Shown here: positions 18,876 to 38,687 of the stretch, in pieces | How the letters are laid out: each line of letters starts with the position of its first letter | How positions within the stretch are numbered: the first letter of the stretch is position 1 | Assembly: GCF_000327285.1 (NCBI RefSeq) | Contig: NZ_HE998567.1 | Location: 1,475,347 to 1,539,346 of the forward strand | DNA from: Holdemania massiliensis AP2 | GTDB lineage: Bacteria; Bacillota_I; Bacilli_A; Erysipelotrichales; Erysipelotrichaceae | Direction: 5' to 3' | Length of the DNA stretch: 64,000 nucleotides | Position numbers and translations under genes: made by a program | The notes under the pieces: model-generated | Databases searched by the model: none | The model's input: only the letters and a program-made list of their open reading frames with translations | What the model was told of the DNA's origin: nothing

Positions 18876-19418
18876 ATGAAGTTTTTAGTCATTTCTGACA
18901 TTCACGGTTCTGCCGCATACATGAAAAAAGCACTTGAAGCCTATGCTTTGCATAAACCCGATCACATCCTGCTGCTGGGGGATATTCTCTATCATGGTCC
19001 TCGCAATCCGCTGCCGCCTGATTATAATCCCCAGGAAGTGGTTGCGATGCTGAATCCTCTGGCTGATAGAATCACAGCGGTTCGCGGCAACTGCGACGCT
19101 GAAGTTGATCAGATGCTCCTGAATTTTGATATTCTGCGCGACTGTGCAACAATTTTTTTAGGCGGACGGCGGATTACAGCAACGCATGGTCATCTATTTC
19201 CGCTTGATCCGCCGCCGTACAGCTTCCCCGGTGATATCTATTTATATGGTCATATCCATATTCCTGTGATCCGTCAGGAAAACGGAATTACGCTGCTTAA
19301 TCCCGGTTCGATCACACTGCCTAAGCAGAACAGTCCGCATACCTACGGCTTGCTGGATGAAAATGAATTTACCATTATGACCGAAGATCACGAAGTCTAT
19401 CAGTCCCTTGCTTTTTGA
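18876..19418 (+). CDS. yfcE: YfcE/MJ0936-type metallophosphodiesterase
   Basis: 180 residues. All metallophosphoesterase motifs are present: DIHG, GDILYHGPRN, GNCD, HGH and GHIHIP, with LNPGSITLPK near the end, the usual YfcE pattern. It is a Mn-dependent phosphodiesterase whose natural substrate is unknown. AAGGAGG sits 7 nt before the ATG. It is a single gene, convergent with the TnpB-like gene. Confidence 0.95.
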   Translation: MKFLVISDIHGSAAYMKKALEAYALHKPDHILLLGDILYHGPRNPLPPDYNPQEVVAMLNPLADRITAVRGNCDAEVDQMLLNFDILRDCATIFLGGRRITATHGHLFPLDPPPYSFPGDIYLYGHIHIPVIRQENGITLLNPGSITLPKQNSPHTYGLLDENEFTIMTEDHEVYQSLAF

Positions 19419-19463: not shown

Positions 19464-19967
19464 TTAATCCTGGATTTTCCTAGTCTCCTTCGGCTTGGGA
19501 AATCCTTTTTTATTCTCATCGATCAGCAGACAAAGAACTGCCGTCCATTGATTCTCAGTTTCCTTTAAGGTCATTTTTAAAATTGCCCCCTGATTCATCA
19601 AATGCCGTTGGGCAACGGGAGCAATATAGTAAATCGGCTGATTTATCGAGTTCAAAATCAGCTGGTTTTCACGAATCTCCATCTCACTCCTTTTCCATTG
19701 ACAACTGGGCAATGTGCGCCGAATACGATCCTGATCCTTATCGGATCCCGAACGCATTCGCTGCGCCTGTTTCCATACTTGCTGAAGCATTGCTGTGGGC
19801 AGCGACTGATAAATATCCGGCAGCGGCGCATCTTCAATCTGCTGCGGATGATGGATCATCACAGCAAATAATTCTTCGCGAAGCTGCGCGGCACTATGAC
19901 TTAATGCACAAAGTTGGCGGCGTTGGACCAATGTCGGGAAGCATGTAATTTTTACGTTCATAATCAT
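19464..19967 (-). CDS. TnpB-like N-terminal (WED/REC) protein lacking RuvC
   Basis: 167 residues. The start resembles the TnpB opening (VKITCFPTLVQRRQL, compare the usual K-hydrophobic-R-L-Y-P-T-x-x-Q), then LPTAMLQQVWKQAQRM matches the LPxxxxQxxLRxLxxA helix of TnpB. The C-terminal half has the beta-barrel pattern NQLILNSINQPIYYI...GAILKMTL...QWTAVLCLLID. In TnpB this barrel leads directly into RuvC motif I, but here the protein ends (KPKETRKIQD) and no RuvC follows in any frame before yfcE. AGGAGG precedes the ATG. It could be a decayed transposon gene or a retained RNA/DNA-binding derivative. Confidence 0.55.
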   Translation of the reverse strand: MIMNVKITCFPTLVQRRQLCALSHSAAQLREELFAVMIHHPQQIEDAPLPDIYQSLPTAMLQQVWKQAQRMRSGSDKDQDRIRRTLPSCQWKRSEMEIRENQLILNSINQPIYYIAPVAQRHLMNQGAILKMTLKETENQWTAVLCLLIDENKKGFPKPKETRKIQD

Positions 19968-20193: not shown

Positions 20194-21309
20194 TTATTTT
20201 TCCTGCATCAACCGATCCAGCCGCGGATTTGCGACTTCTCGGATTCGGCCATTTTCGATATAAACTTTTGCTAAACGGTCGCTCAATAAAGTCAAAACCT
20301 CATAGGGAATCGTACCTAATTCCTGTGCCACCTGTTCCAGCGGAATATGTGGGCCGATCAGCTCAACCTTTGTCCCTACAGGAAAAGCATGCGGAAGCCG
20401 GATCATCGCCTGATCCATACAAATCCGTCCTACAAATTCCCCGGTTTCTCCTTCAATCCAACAACTGCGTCCCTGATGCCGGCGAATCCAGCCATCGGCA
20501 TAACCTATCGGCAGTGTTCCGATCCATTCTTCCCCCTGCGTTGTATAGGTTGCTCCATATCCAATCGACTGTCCAGCCTTTAATTGTTTTACATAGATCA
20601 AGCGGCTGTATAAGTTGATACACGGCTTGAGTTCAGTTAAATAAGAAGTCACGCCAAACATGGCCAGTCCGCAGCGGACCGCATTACCTGGAGCTTTAGG
20701 ATAATGCACTGCTGCATCGGAGTTGCAGCTATGCACCCAGCGAAAAGGCGTCTTCAGCGCGTCAACAACTGCCTCAAATCGTGCTGCCTGATCCTCGGTC
20801 ATTTGATTATCCGGATTATCCGAACACGCAAAATGGGTAAATATCCCTTCTACGTCAGCACCGTTGGCTTTTAACAAGGACAACATTGCCTGCAGCTCCG
20901 CTACCTTCTCCGTACCAATCCGGTGCATGCCGGTATCCACTTTTAAATGCACTTTCAGTCCTTTTATCGGAACCTGAATCAATTCTTTAACCCACTCCAG
21001 CGACACCGCCGGTACAGTTAAATCATACTGCAGCAGCAATTCTGCCTGAGCCGGATCCACGACCCCCAAAATCAAAATCGGTGCGGTGATTTCCTGATAC
21101 CGCAAAGACAAGGCCTCGTCCAAACTCGAAACGGCCAACATGGTAGCCCCGCCAGCCAATGCAGCCCGCGCCACGGAAGCATCCCCTGCACCATAGCCGT
21201 TAGCTTTGATCACGGCAATAAATTGCCGATTTGTCTGTGACCGAAGCCACTGCACATTTTCTTTGATCTGATCCAGGTCAACCTGAACCCAGCTTTCCCG
21301 ATAAAACAT
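20194..21309 (-). CDS. alr: alanine racemase
   Basis: 371 residues, the family length. The PLP lysine motif AVIKANGYGAG (Lys about 35), the FTHFACSD region and the second-active-site region SIGYGATYT are present. It makes D-alanine for peptidoglycan. It follows a small membrane protein gene by 32 nt on the same strand and ends at a strong terminator. Confidence 0.97.
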   Translation of the reverse strand: MFYRESWVQVDLDQIKENVQWLRSQTNRQFIAVIKANGYGAGDASVARAALAGGATMLAVSSLDEALSLRYQEITAPILILGVVDPAQAELLLQYDLTVPAVSLEWVKELIQVPIKGLKVHLKVDTGMHRIGTEKVAELQAMLSLLKANGADVEGIFTHFACSDNPDNQMTEDQAARFEAVVDALKTPFRWVHSCNSDAAVHYPKAPGNAVRCGLAMFGVTSYLTELKPCINLYSRLIYVKQLKAGQSIGYGATYTTQGEEWIGTLPIGYADGWIRRHQGRSCWIEGETGEFVGRICMDQAMIRLPHAFPVGTKVELIGPHIPLEQVAQELGTIPYEVLTLLSDRLAKVYIENGRIREVANPRLDRLMQEK

Positions 21310-31577: not shown

Positions 31578-31632
31578 CGAACTAACTAAGTAAAAAAGCC
31601 TCTGGCTACGAGGCTTTTACTTGGTTAGTTCG
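31578..31632. terminator. large hairpin, probably terminating the bgl operon
   Basis: CGAACTAAC...AAGCCTC (31578-31602) pairs with GAGGCTTTT...GTTAGTTCG (31610-31632) around a 7-nt loop, about 20 paired bases. The inner GCCTC stem is bordered by A/T runs on both sides, so it could stop transcription leftwards from licT. Confidence 0.5.
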
Positions 31633-32008
31633 AACTGCACAGGGTTTTATTTAATGAGTTCCCAAATCACTCGTCCTGATACAGAGCATATAGCTTACCA
31701 GGCTGCTCAAAAAATCATTTTTGAGCTCAGAGAAACTACTTTAATAATTGAACTAACCAAACAGACAATTTTGTTTCTCTATTTATAATATACGCAAAAA
31801 ATCAAAAAAACCCCCATAAAAAATCAATTTTCTTAAAACATTTACAATATCTCCTCAGTTTTTTACTGAAACACGTCATTATCAGAAAACAAAGGACCCT
31901 AAAAAGGATATGACGATGAATACACTACACAAGCTTAATTTTGATTTTTTCGCCTAGAAAACCAAGCTCTTTTTGACTTCTCCTTGCGGGCAACAACTGA
32001 TTCTCTAA

Positions 32009-36370: not shown

Positions 36371-36444
36371 TGGAGCGAATGATGGGAATCGAACCCACGT
36401 AGTCAGCTTGGAAGGCTGAAGTTCTACCATTGAACTACATTCGC
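36371..36444 (-). tRNA. tRNA-Gly (TCC)
   Basis: Acceptor GCGAATG/CATTCGC, anticodon loop CTTCCAA, CCA encoded. Last tRNA of a six-gene leftward array. Confidence 0.96.
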
Positions 36445-36453
36445 ATAATTAAG

Positions 36454-36529
36454 TGGTGTCCCGGAAAGGAATCGAACCTTCGACCCACTGATTAAAAGTC
36501 AGTTGCTCTACCGCCTGAGCTACCGGGAC
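36454..36529 (-). tRNA. tRNA-Lys (TTT)
   Basis: Acceptor GTCCCGG/CCGGGAC, anticodon loop CTTTTAA, CCA encoded. Confidence 0.96.
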
Positions 36530-36550
36530 ATAGATAATCTAAATAAAAAA

Positions 36551-36626
36551 TGGCTGGGGCACCTGGGGTCGAACCAGGGAAATGACAGAGTCAAAGTCTG
36601 TTGCCTTACCGCTTGGCTATGCCCCA
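36551..36626 (-). tRNA. tRNA-Gln (TTG)
   Basis: Acceptor TGGGGCA/TGCCCCA, anticodon loop CTTTGAC, discriminator G, CCA encoded. Confidence 0.95.
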
Positions 36627-36642
36627 CTATCTTAAAAAAGAA

Positions 36643-36727
36643 TGGTGGAGAGGGGCAGATTCGAACTGCCGAACCCGTTGGGAACTGATTTACAGTCAGC
36701 CGCGTTTAGCCACTTCGCTACCTCTCC
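36643..36727 (-). tRNA. tRNA-Tyr (GTA)
   Basis: 85 nt with a long variable arm, acceptor GGAGAGG/CCTCTCC, anticodon loop CTGTAAA, CCA encoded. Confidence 0.96.
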
Positions 36728-36733
36728 AACTCC

Positions 36734-36809
36734 TGGTGCCGACTATAGGAATCGAACCTACAACCTACTGATTACAAATCAGTTGCTCTGCCAATTGAGC
36801 TAAGTCGGC
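36734..36809 (-). tRNA. tRNA-Thr (TGT)
   Basis: Acceptor GCCGACT/AGTCGGC, anticodon loop TTTGTAA, CCA encoded. With the GGT species at 12655 it is the second threonine tRNA in the window. Confidence 0.96.
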
Positions 36810-36819
36810 AATAAAAAAA

Positions 36820-36895
36820 TGGTGGAGGCTGAGGGGCTCGAACCCCCGACCCTCTGCTTGTAAGGCAGACGCTCTCCCAACTGAGCTAAGCCTCC
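36820..36895 (-). tRNA. tRNA-Val (TAC)
   Basis: Acceptor GGAGGCT/AGCCTCC, anticodon loop CTTACAA, CCA encoded. First tRNA of the array. Confidence 0.96.
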
Positions 36896-36993: not shown

Positions 36994-38687
36994 GTAACTT
37001 GCAAAAGTAAATGCAACTCAAGTATTAGAAAAGATTGCACTTACATTTGCAAAACCTTAACCTGCATTTACTCTTGCAAATCGGTTATCATTTTATTGTA
37101 TCTCCCTGCTTGTTTAGGAGGTTTGTCTTATGAGCCACTTTACTTTACAAGATCGTATCACGATTCAATCTGAACTTAGTCATCGTTCTCCGTTTCATTC
37201 TATTGCTCTTTTACTTTCCAAAAGTCCCTCCACGATCTCCCGCGAAATTAGAAACCATCTGCTTGTCCGTGATCGTTCCTCTTATCCTCAAGTCCGCATG
37301 ATGAATGACTGTGTGCATCGCTTTGAATGCCGGCTCCGATGCGTCTGTCAGCCTCATTGCCGTTTTCAAAACGGAAACTGTCGCTTTTGCGGCCACTGCT
37401 TCCGTTTTTGCCAGCGTTATGAGAAAGAAATCTGCCCTTCTCTTTCTCATCCCCCTTATGTCTGTAATGGTTGTCCTCATCGCAATCGCTGCACACTGGA
37501 ACAAAAAGATTATAAGGCGGATGTCGCTCATCAAGAATATCGCGATACCTTGGTTGAATCTCGTTCCGGTTTCAATTTATCCGAACTTGAACTCACTTTC
37601 ATTAATCGGGAACTGACTCCACTGATCAAAGACAAGAAGCAATCGGTTCATCATGCCTGTCTGGTCAAAGCCGACATTCTCCCTTGTGATGAGAAAACGA
37701 TTTATAATCTTATTGATGCCAACCTACTTCCGGATATCAAAAACCTAGATTTGCCTCGAAAGTGCCGTTTAAAGCCTAGAAAATCAGGGCGAAGACAACA
37801 CAAAGTCGATAAGAAATGTCGCCTTCATCGCACTTATGAAGATTTTCAGAATTTCATCCAAACGAATCCCGATGTCTCTATTGTTGAGATGGACACGGTC
37901 GAAGGTGTGAAAGGCGGAAAGTGTATTCTCACCTTCCTCTTCAGATCCTGCAACTTTCAATTATACTTTCTGACCGATCACCACACTTCCCAAGCTGTCA
38001 TTCATCAAATCGATCAACTCTATGAACAAGCCTTAGGTCCTGAGCTATTTAAAAAAATGTTTGAATTGATTTTAACGGACAATGGCTCTGAATTCTCTAA
38101 TCCAACTGCCATTGAAAACGATGCCTTGAATCAGCCTCGATCCCGCTTGTTCTATTGTGATCCTGCCGCTTCCTATCAAAAAGGGGCTTGCGAGAACAAT
38201 CACGAGATGCTTCGACGCTTCTTCCCGAAAGGCTTATCCTTTGATGATTTAACACAAGAACAGCTCAATCTCATTTCAAGCCATATCAATTCCTACAAAA
38301 GAAAAAGACTGAACAATCACTCACCTATTGAGTTATTCAGTCTTCTGTTTGGGAATGAAACGTTGGATAAATTAGGGGTTGTCCAAATCGCTCCTGAAAA
38401 CGTTTGTCTTTCCCTACATGGCCTGAAAAACAAGTAAATGTTACACACAGGGAGATACGTTAATCACAGTGTTCAAAACGAATTTAGACGATTGCATTTA
38501 CTCTACGAAATAAACTGCATTTCTCTAAATGTCTTTTCTTGTACCCTTTTCATCTCGTTTCTATCGTTATTTTAACACTTTTCTCCGATTTCTTCCCTTC
38601 TTTTTTTATTTTCTTTCTTCCTTTTTTCCCTTTTCTTATCCTGTCTTTTCCTTTTTCTCCGTACTTGCATTTACCTTTACAATTGAC
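36994..38687 (+). mobile_element. IS30-family-like insertion sequence, complete
   Basis: 1694 bp bounded by 23-bp imperfect inverted repeats (36994-37016 GTAACTTGC...GCAA; 38665-38687 TTGC...TTGAC; 19 of 23 pairs) and flanked by perfect 15-bp direct repeats. It carries one intact transposase gene. Extra copies of the TTGCA-rich repeat lie inside the left end (37035-37052, 37063-37080) and right end (38492-38510) and may be transposase binding sites. It sits just upstream of the tRNA array promoter. Confidence 0.92.
37130..38437 (+). CDS. IS30-family transposase
   Basis: 435 residues. An N-terminal helix-turn-helix (FHSIALLLSKSPSTISREIRN, split here: SPSTISREI is the key part), then a Cys/His-rich stretch of about 45 residues with repeated CxxC pairs (NCRFCGHC, CNGCPH) suggesting a zinc ribbon, then a DDE catalytic core: VEMDTVEG, ILTDNGSEF and the final E in KGACENNHEMLRRFFPKG. 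The last motif is typical of IS30. GGAGG precedes ATG 37130. The gene is intact. The zinc ribbon makes it longer than classical IS30 transposases. Confidence 0.93.
   Translation: MSHFTLQDRITIQSELSHRSPFHSIALLLSKSPSTISREIRNHLLVRDRSSYPQVRMMNDCVHRFECRLRCVCQPHCRFQNGNCRFCGHCFRFCQRYEKEICPSLSHPPYVCNGCPHRNRCTLEQKDYKADVAHQEYRDTLVESRSGFNLSELELTFINRELTPLIKDKKQSVHHACLVKADILPCDEKTIYNLIDANLLPDIKNLDLPRKCRLKPRKSGRRQHKVDKKCRLHRTYEDFQNFIQTNPDVSIVEMDTVEGVKGGKCILTFLFRSCNFQLYFLTDHHTSQAVIHQIDQLYEQALGPELFKKMFELILTDNGSEFSNPTAIENDALNQPRSRLFYCDPAASYQKGACENNHEMLRRFFPKGLSFDDLTQEQLNLISSHINSYKRKRLNNHSPIELFSLLFGNETLDKLGVVQIAPENVCLSLHGLKNK

Follow-up and report, generated by a model that had tools for sequence, protein, structure and literature searches.

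A predicted TnpB recognition lobe without RuvC and an orphan omegaRNA-like gene in Holdemania massiliensis

The window analysed here is a stretch of 64,000 nucleotides from the Holdemania massiliensis AP2 genome (contig NZ_HE998567.1, positions 1,475,347 to 1,539,346). On its minus strand, at 19464-19967, lies P0001, an uninterrupted frame with an ATG start. The gene sits between alr (20194-21309, minus strand) and a convergent gene for a calcineurin-like phosphodiesterase (18876-19418, plus strand). We present evidence that P0001 descends from TnpB, the OMEGA nuclease of IS200/IS605 and IS607 elements, and that it corresponds to the recognition lobe of that protein without the nuclease lobe. 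Neither a RuvC domain with its D-E-D residues nor a zinc-ribbon TNB domain was found in the P0001 frame, which stops ahead of the RuvC position, and its stop lies 45 bp from the end of the phosphodiesterase gene, leaving no space for a RuvC remnant. A second element of the window, an orphan omegaRNA-like gene 12 kb away, is a candidate partner; both lie inside one 17-kb neighbourhood.

The kinship of P0001 with TnpB can be seen by profile and fold comparison only, since single-sequence scans with P0001 returned no match in Pfam and none in NCBIfam. A PADLOC scan and a PDB sequence search with A1, a profile of four P0001 orthologues, also returned nothing for P0001. In PHROG, the sole match was phrog_506 ‘transposase’ (E = 0.036, residues 54-162), a family that the full-length TnpB of the same genome, P0002, matches at 5e-38. 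When A1 was compared with A2, a profile of ten full-length TnpBs from the same bacterial family, residues 2-152 aligned collinearly with positions 7-165 (E = 4.7e-6, probability 86). A local rerun of this comparison scored 48.0, against 20.7 for the best of 200 column shuffles and 9.5 for the reversed profile. On this profile evidence, we regard the TnpB ancestry of P0001 as established.

The predicted fold points the same way. An AlphaFold2 model of P0001, built from the four sequences, had a mean predicted local distance difference test score (pLDDT) of 77.6 and a predicted template-modelling score of 0.61; of the five models, two were good and three poor (pLDDT 77.6, 74.8, 56.6, 44.3 and 44.0). 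In a Foldseek search of the PDB, the first 32 rows were all TnpB or Cas12-type proteins, headed by 8ex9, ISDra2 TnpB on reRNA and DNA with RuvC unresolved. VIA-align placed P0001 on ISDra2 TnpB 8exa with Z = 12.2 (146 residues aligned, root-mean-square deviation 8.1), on 8h1j with Z = 11.7 (143 residues, 5.5), and on the Cas12f chain 8dzj_B, a second protomer, with Z = 11.3. As a positive control, the corresponding half of a genuine full-length relative gave Z = 14.2, 14.0 and 16.4 on these three structures. According to the excerpted text of PMC10097598, the domains of ISDra2 TnpB are WED (residues 1-12 and 117-176), REC (13-116) and RuvC (from 185). Because the profile alignment, the fold match and these domain borders agree, P0001 is best described, from its sequence and its model, as the WED and REC recognition lobe of TnpB, cut at the border of the nuclease lobe; its REC part (residues 13-88) includes the ‘LPTAMLQQVWKQAQR’ helix. 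An earlier reading of this DNA from its letters alone (the sequence-only reading) had called the frame TnpB-like, had placed its end just before RuvC and had named structure prediction as a check. The profile score and its shuffle controls bear out the first claim, the stop at the edge of the WED/REC lobe, ahead of the position of the ISDra2 RuvC start, agrees with the second, and the Foldseek and VIA-align results supply the WED/REC resemblance sought in the third.

P0001 is present at the same site between alr and the phosphodiesterase gene, among conserved housekeeping genes, in all four Holdemania genomes (that of AP2, and G035, G078 and G104), as a frame of 166-167 residues with no stops. 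For the closest pair, the ratio of nonsynonymous to synonymous substitution rates (dN/dS) was 0.09 (dS 0.80), and differences at codon positions 1, 2 and 3 numbered 12, 11 and 58. The AP2 copy and that of locus L005 gave 0.07, at a saturated dS of 2.1, and comparisons with G035, which are likewise saturated, gave 0.27-0.40. Identity to G035 was 37% for P0001 against 59-77% for five other genes, so P0001 has evolved faster than its neighbours. P0001 is fixed in the Holdemania genomes (n = 4) and under purifying selection; because it is open and at the same site in all four, it is not a fresh wreck. In this, too, the sequence-only reading has held up: the ribosome-binding site (AGGAGG), the clean frame and the two flanking genes are as it described, orthologues occur unbroken at this locus beyond one strain (dN/dS 0.07-0.09), and its suggestion of a gene retained without the nuclease fits the selection observed.

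No intact P0001 was found outside Holdemania among 145 genomes of the family, 315 of the order and 395 of the class. Eight of the 315 genomes in the order-wide search matched with an E of at most 0.01: the four of Holdemania, and four others whose matches were rejected as short fragments with in-frame stops. Class-wide, 2 of 395 genomes matched, AP2 and one with a fragment containing stops. Viral contigs yielded 38 pattern stretches, none confirmed, and phages two records at E = 2, which we judged to be chance. A second match of the P0001 search in G035 proved to be the full-length TnpB of that genome and not a P0001 copy. A frameshifted or separate RuvC half that might complement P0001 was also rejected: in AP2, PF01385 matched the full-length TnpB only, and a P0002 query found exactly one place in each of the four Holdemania genomes.

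Each Holdemania genome thus has one full-length TnpB of the P0002 lineage, which coexists with P0001 in all four. The D-E-D and zinc-ribbon residues are kept in the three Holdemania full-length TnpBs that were aligned, P0002 included, and identity to G035 is 59% for the P0002 type against 37% for P0001. In AP2, P0002 adjoins mazF-like and dut-like genes (named by eye). Between loci L019 and L020, which belong to two species, the full-length tnpB differs by a dS of 0.035, where genes around P0001 show 0.3-0.8, which suggests recent exchange of the tnpB locus.

Directly behind the full-length tnpBs we found a conserved RNA that ends in GAAC(C) and is followed by a variable stretch. Its fold, drawn from 12 sequences, comprises 18 pairs in two stems (the scaffold stem and a further one) and a pseudoknot, with pairing in 91.9% of cells, and its covariation score was 0.514 against 0.165 for shuffled alignments (none of 500 reached the observed score) and 0.05-0.13 for slid versions; each of the final two pseudoknot pairs fails in five of nine sequences. 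This RNA has the position and architecture of an omegaRNA, as described in the excerpt of PMC10097598. Judged by eye, most of the omegaRNAs at loci L018-L021 and L048-L054 have their guide stretch in the 5' arm of a hairpin, which is often terminator-like.

A covariance model (R1) built on the omegaRNA behind full-length tnpBs, searched over the 145 family genomes, found 26 places in 18 genomes. Nineteen lie directly behind a TnpB match, five lie 58 bp or less from a contig end, where TnpB adjacency cannot be judged, and two have no TnpB match alongside. Both of these are in Holdemania, one in the window and one at the matching place in G078. A third copy, in G104, is more diverged; it was missed by R1 and found by BLAST and by a second model, R2, which was built with all three orphan RNAs and so recovers these by construction. 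At P0001 itself, neither R1 nor R2 detected a scaffold (L005, L006, L007 and this part of the window), Rfam showed no family around the gene, and a conserved guide RNA was sought in its flanks, where only a promoter- or leader-like stretch is conserved. Any guide for P0001 must therefore act in trans.

The orphan RNA, present in three of the four Holdemania genomes, keeps the scaffold stem, the second stem and the GAAC end, with the pseudoknot reduced to three GC pairs. Its scaffold is 87% identical between AP2 and G078, where the outer flanks are 48-53% identical, and 63% identical to the cis omegaRNA of P0002. Among the three orphans, both partners have changed in seven pairs, which none of 500 shuffles reproduced, and most of these pairs are in the hairpin immediately upstream of the scaffold; this hairpin belongs to a leader with the conserved arms AGAGAAAC and GTTTCTCT. 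The AP2 copy folds with z = -4.6. An AT-rich -10-like element (31781-31790) is conserved in the leader; a simple promoter scan left this site unscored and found no terminator. We conclude that the orphan is an omegaRNA-like gene whose structure has been maintained. In AP2 and G078, the leader also has a stretch of 11-12 nt that is complementary to the scaffold/guide junction, covaries at one position and is not kept in G104; a role as an RNA switch or in self-targeting is possible.

In AP2, the orphan is found downstream of the Val-Thr-Tyr-Gln-Lys-Gly tRNA operon; it is flanked by a BglG/PRD-type antiterminator gene and a gene for an Mga-like regulator, with no TnpB frame between these flanking genes. 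In G078 and G104, it lies 1.5 kb behind a tRNA operon; in G104, the gap of 1.6 kb holds an ISL3 transposase gene (L065:2254-3540, plus strand). We considered that the orphan might be the 3' part of a surviving tnpB beside it, and rejected this for AP2 and G104, where the gap is completely read. In these two genomes the orphan thus differs from the omegaRNA of the P0002 lineage, which is encoded directly behind its tnpB.

In G078 and G104, the position of the orphan relative to the tRNA operon matches a tRNA-tnpB-omegaRNA order seen in other genera. Across nine tnpB loci (L048-L056), a tRNA cluster stands on the upstream side of tnpB in eight; L049 has none. Six of these clusters comprise Val, Thr, Tyr, Gln, Lys and Gly tRNAs, and two, in Holdemania, Ser-Asp-Gly, the AP2 cluster being on the strand opposite to tnpB. 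Three loci from two other genera show the order alr, membrane gene, tRNAs, tnpB, and the same alr and membrane gene adjoin P0001. The 3' part of the orphan, GTGCAGTTCGAAC, is nearer to the tRNA-linked RNAs of another genus (GTGCGGATCGAAC) than to the cis copy of its own genome (GTGAGGTTTGAAC), which fits descent from a tRNA-linked cassette. Coordinates of the window's features are collected in Table 1.

Table 1. Features of the P0001 gene, the orphan RNA and the tRNA operon, in window coordinates.
Feature	Position	Strand	Basis
P0001, predicted TnpB derivative with REC lobe only, 167 residues	19464..19967	-	Open reading frame, profile, fold, orthologues
P0001 residues 151-167 and stop, short tail	19464..19517	-	Modelled with low confidence; expected start of the linker to RuvC
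P0001 residues 89-150, predicted remainder of WED beta-barrel	19518..19703	-	Motifs ‘WKRSE’, ‘NQL’, ‘YYIAPVAQR’, ‘WTAVLCL’
P0001 residues 13-88, predicted REC helices inserted in WED	19704..19931	-	Helices 13-37, 58-73, 76-84; invariant residues
P0001 residues 1-12, predicted first WED strand	19932..19967	-	AlphaFold2 strand 2-10; corresponds to ISDra2 WED 1-12
AGGAGG ribosome-binding site within conserved leader of P0001	19978..19983	-	Kept in two sister species
Terminator-like hairpin, 5' arm with putative guide	31579..31631	-	Pairs in 74% of cells
Putative guide, first 16 nt past conserved GAAC	31612..31627	-	Position relative to family scaffold; boundary inferred
Orphan omegaRNA-like scaffold	31627..31710	-	R1 55.6 bits, E = 6.6e-12; covariation; no adjoining tnpB
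Orphan RNA leader	31711..31790	-	Arms as given in the text, covarying hairpin
tRNA Val-Thr-Tyr-Gln-Lys-Gly operon	36371..36895	-	Bears full-length tnpB-omegaRNA in other genera

Several further observations concern the tRNA-linked loci. At L048 and L050-L056, in several genera including Holdemania, full-length tnpBs that keep their catalytic residues and have an omegaRNA in cis stand beside tRNA operons, some of them starting 50-110 nt behind tRNA-Gly. Such tRNA-operon-linked, single-copy TnpBs of the Erysipelotrichaceae are possibly domesticated. In one genome, the tRNA cluster upstream of tnpB is itself preceded by a tmRNA gene (L054:8992-9368, minus strand). In the window, a transposase-like gene with an HTH_38 domain (37130-38437, plus strand) adjoins the tRNA operon.

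Our preferred reading, to which we assign a probability of roughly one half, is that P0001 arose by exaptation from a chromosomal, tRNA-linked TnpB, of which it keeps the REC lobe only, and that it binds DNA in an RNA-dependent way without cutting, its guide being supplied in trans. An ancestral order tRNA(Val..Gly)-tnpB-omegaRNA, surviving beside alr in other genera, would have been broken up; the nuclease half would have been lost, the recognition half would have settled behind alr, and the omegaRNA would have stayed near the tRNAs and acquired its own promoter. The WED/REC lobe would now bind the orphan RNA or the P0002 omegaRNA in trans, and P0001 would occupy DNA bearing a transposon-associated motif (TAM) without cutting it, as a minimal DNA-binding regulator that is guided by RNA or at least depends on it. 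TnpB holds the TAM duplex with WED and REC, and the omegaRNA scaffold with WED and RuvC (PMC10097598, excerpt). P0001 should retain the TAM cleft and some of the RNA surface and lack the RuvC contacts, an expectation that favours a DNA binder that depends on RNA and does not cut. More tentatively, and at less than even odds, the split cassette may have given rise to a two-gene RNA-guided DNA-binding system, consisting of a 167-residue recognition-lobe effector and a self-promoted omegaRNA gene with its terminator.

A number of results weigh against this reading. Many scaffold contacts of ISDra2 TnpB are made by RuvC (PMC10097598, excerpt), so RNA binding by the isolated lobe may be poor. The partnership between P0001 and the orphan RNA is one that we infer only from neighbourhood and shared ancestry, and G035 has P0001 and a cis omegaRNA with no orphan detected (next best E = 0.1). 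In G078, a run of N separates the tRNAs from the orphan and may conceal a tnpB. P0001 lies on the opposite side of alr from the tnpB of other genera, so the synteny is suggestive and inexact, and profile comparison failed to place P0001 in one TnpB subgroup. Finally, the putative guide varies between species, seed positions included, and its 16 nt after GAAC, searched against the AP2 genome with up to two mismatches, matched only themselves, where the reversed control matched four places. TldR guides pair with TAM-flanked sequence at a host promoter. Guides of 6 nt are enough for one TldR (PMC13418256, excerpt), so there may be a short target that a 16-nt search would miss.

We next consider what P0001 might do if it does not work with a guide of its own. 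It might modulate P0002, by sharing the P0002 omegaRNA or by pairing with P0002 as a nuclease-less partner, and so restrain or retarget cleavage. Both proteins occur in all four Holdemania genomes, G035 has the cis omegaRNA only, Cas12f acts as a dimer (PMC10097598, excerpt), and the top structural matches include second-protomer chains of Cas12f (8dzj_B, Z = 11.3). The same excerpt, however, describes TnpB as a monomer, and divergence has been much faster in P0001 than in P0002 (37% vs. 59% identity to G035); we consider this modulator role unlikely. Just as doubtful is the proposal that P0001 is a plain nucleic-acid binder (OB-fold/REC) that uses no omegaRNA, the orphan either guiding P0002 in trans or having a role of its own. 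It would accommodate the missing scaffold beside P0001, the lost RuvC-scaffold contacts and the undetected orphan in G035, and P0002, with its D-E-D and zinc-ribbon residues, could employ a second guide; however, a second guide of an active nuclease should have a target, and the search, which covered the chromosome, showed none, and the orphan scaffold is only 63% identical to that of P0002. That P0001 is a functionless TnpB remnant in slow decay is very improbable, for although it evolves faster than five neighbours (37% vs. 59-77% identity to G035), it has stayed open at 166-167 residues in all four genomes despite identity of about 37%, with dN/dS of 0.07-0.09 among the three closer species and a conserved ribosome site and leader.

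The preferred reading, a recognition lobe that binds DNA without cutting it, can be set beside known systems. P0001 resembles TnpB in its WED and REC lobe, its sequence profile and its collinear order, and its closest full-length relatives keep a cis omegaRNA; unlike TnpB, it has no RuvC, zinc ribbon or cis omegaRNA, and it occupies a fixed chromosomal site in the genus. The second protomer of Cas12f shares the WED/REC fold, and this second chain need not cut, but Cas12f is a full-length protein with a CRISPR guide. Cas12k and Cas12m, which are nuclease-inactive, perform RNA-guided binding without target cleavage, and the role proposed for P0001 would be analogous; in contrast to P0001, they are larger, retain the RuvC fold and are CRISPR-associated. 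To our knowledge, the non-cutting derivatives of TnpB and Cas12 known so far all keep the RuvC fold. Searches of the open-licence literature, which extended to stand-alone guides, tRNA-linked TnpBs and TnpB in Holdemania, turned up neither a TnpB derivative reduced to the REC lobe and lacking RuvC nor an orphan omegaRNA gene like this one.

The sequence-only reading had suggested that P0001 may be an RNA-guided DNA-binding derivative, a smaller relative of the nuclease-dead TnpB regulators, and had proposed looking for a guide RNA nearby. This interpretation is supported in part. As in the TldRs, a TnpB has been retained under selection without nuclease activity; TldRs, however, lost activity by mutation of RuvC, and their genes lie beside their guide RNA (PMC13418256, excerpt). 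A TldR in the strict sense still has its RuvC, in mutated form, and a guide RNA next to its gene; P0001, which lacks the entire nuclease lobe, is not one. No guide RNA adjoins P0001 by R1 or R2; the nearest scaffold, a candidate guide RNA, lies 12 kb off in the window and was undetected in G035. By the features tested (RuvC absent, no adjoining guide), P0001 is neither a TnpB nuclease nor a TldR.

If the two-gene system is real, it would be a natural member of the superfamily that functions without any RuvC fold. A lineage that has the recognition lobe alone and an orphan RNA of the guide type would put to the test whether RuvC is required for RNA-guided recognition of DNA, and through the orphan RNA this can be examined directly. 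The P0001 lineage would then offer a natural minimal scaffold.
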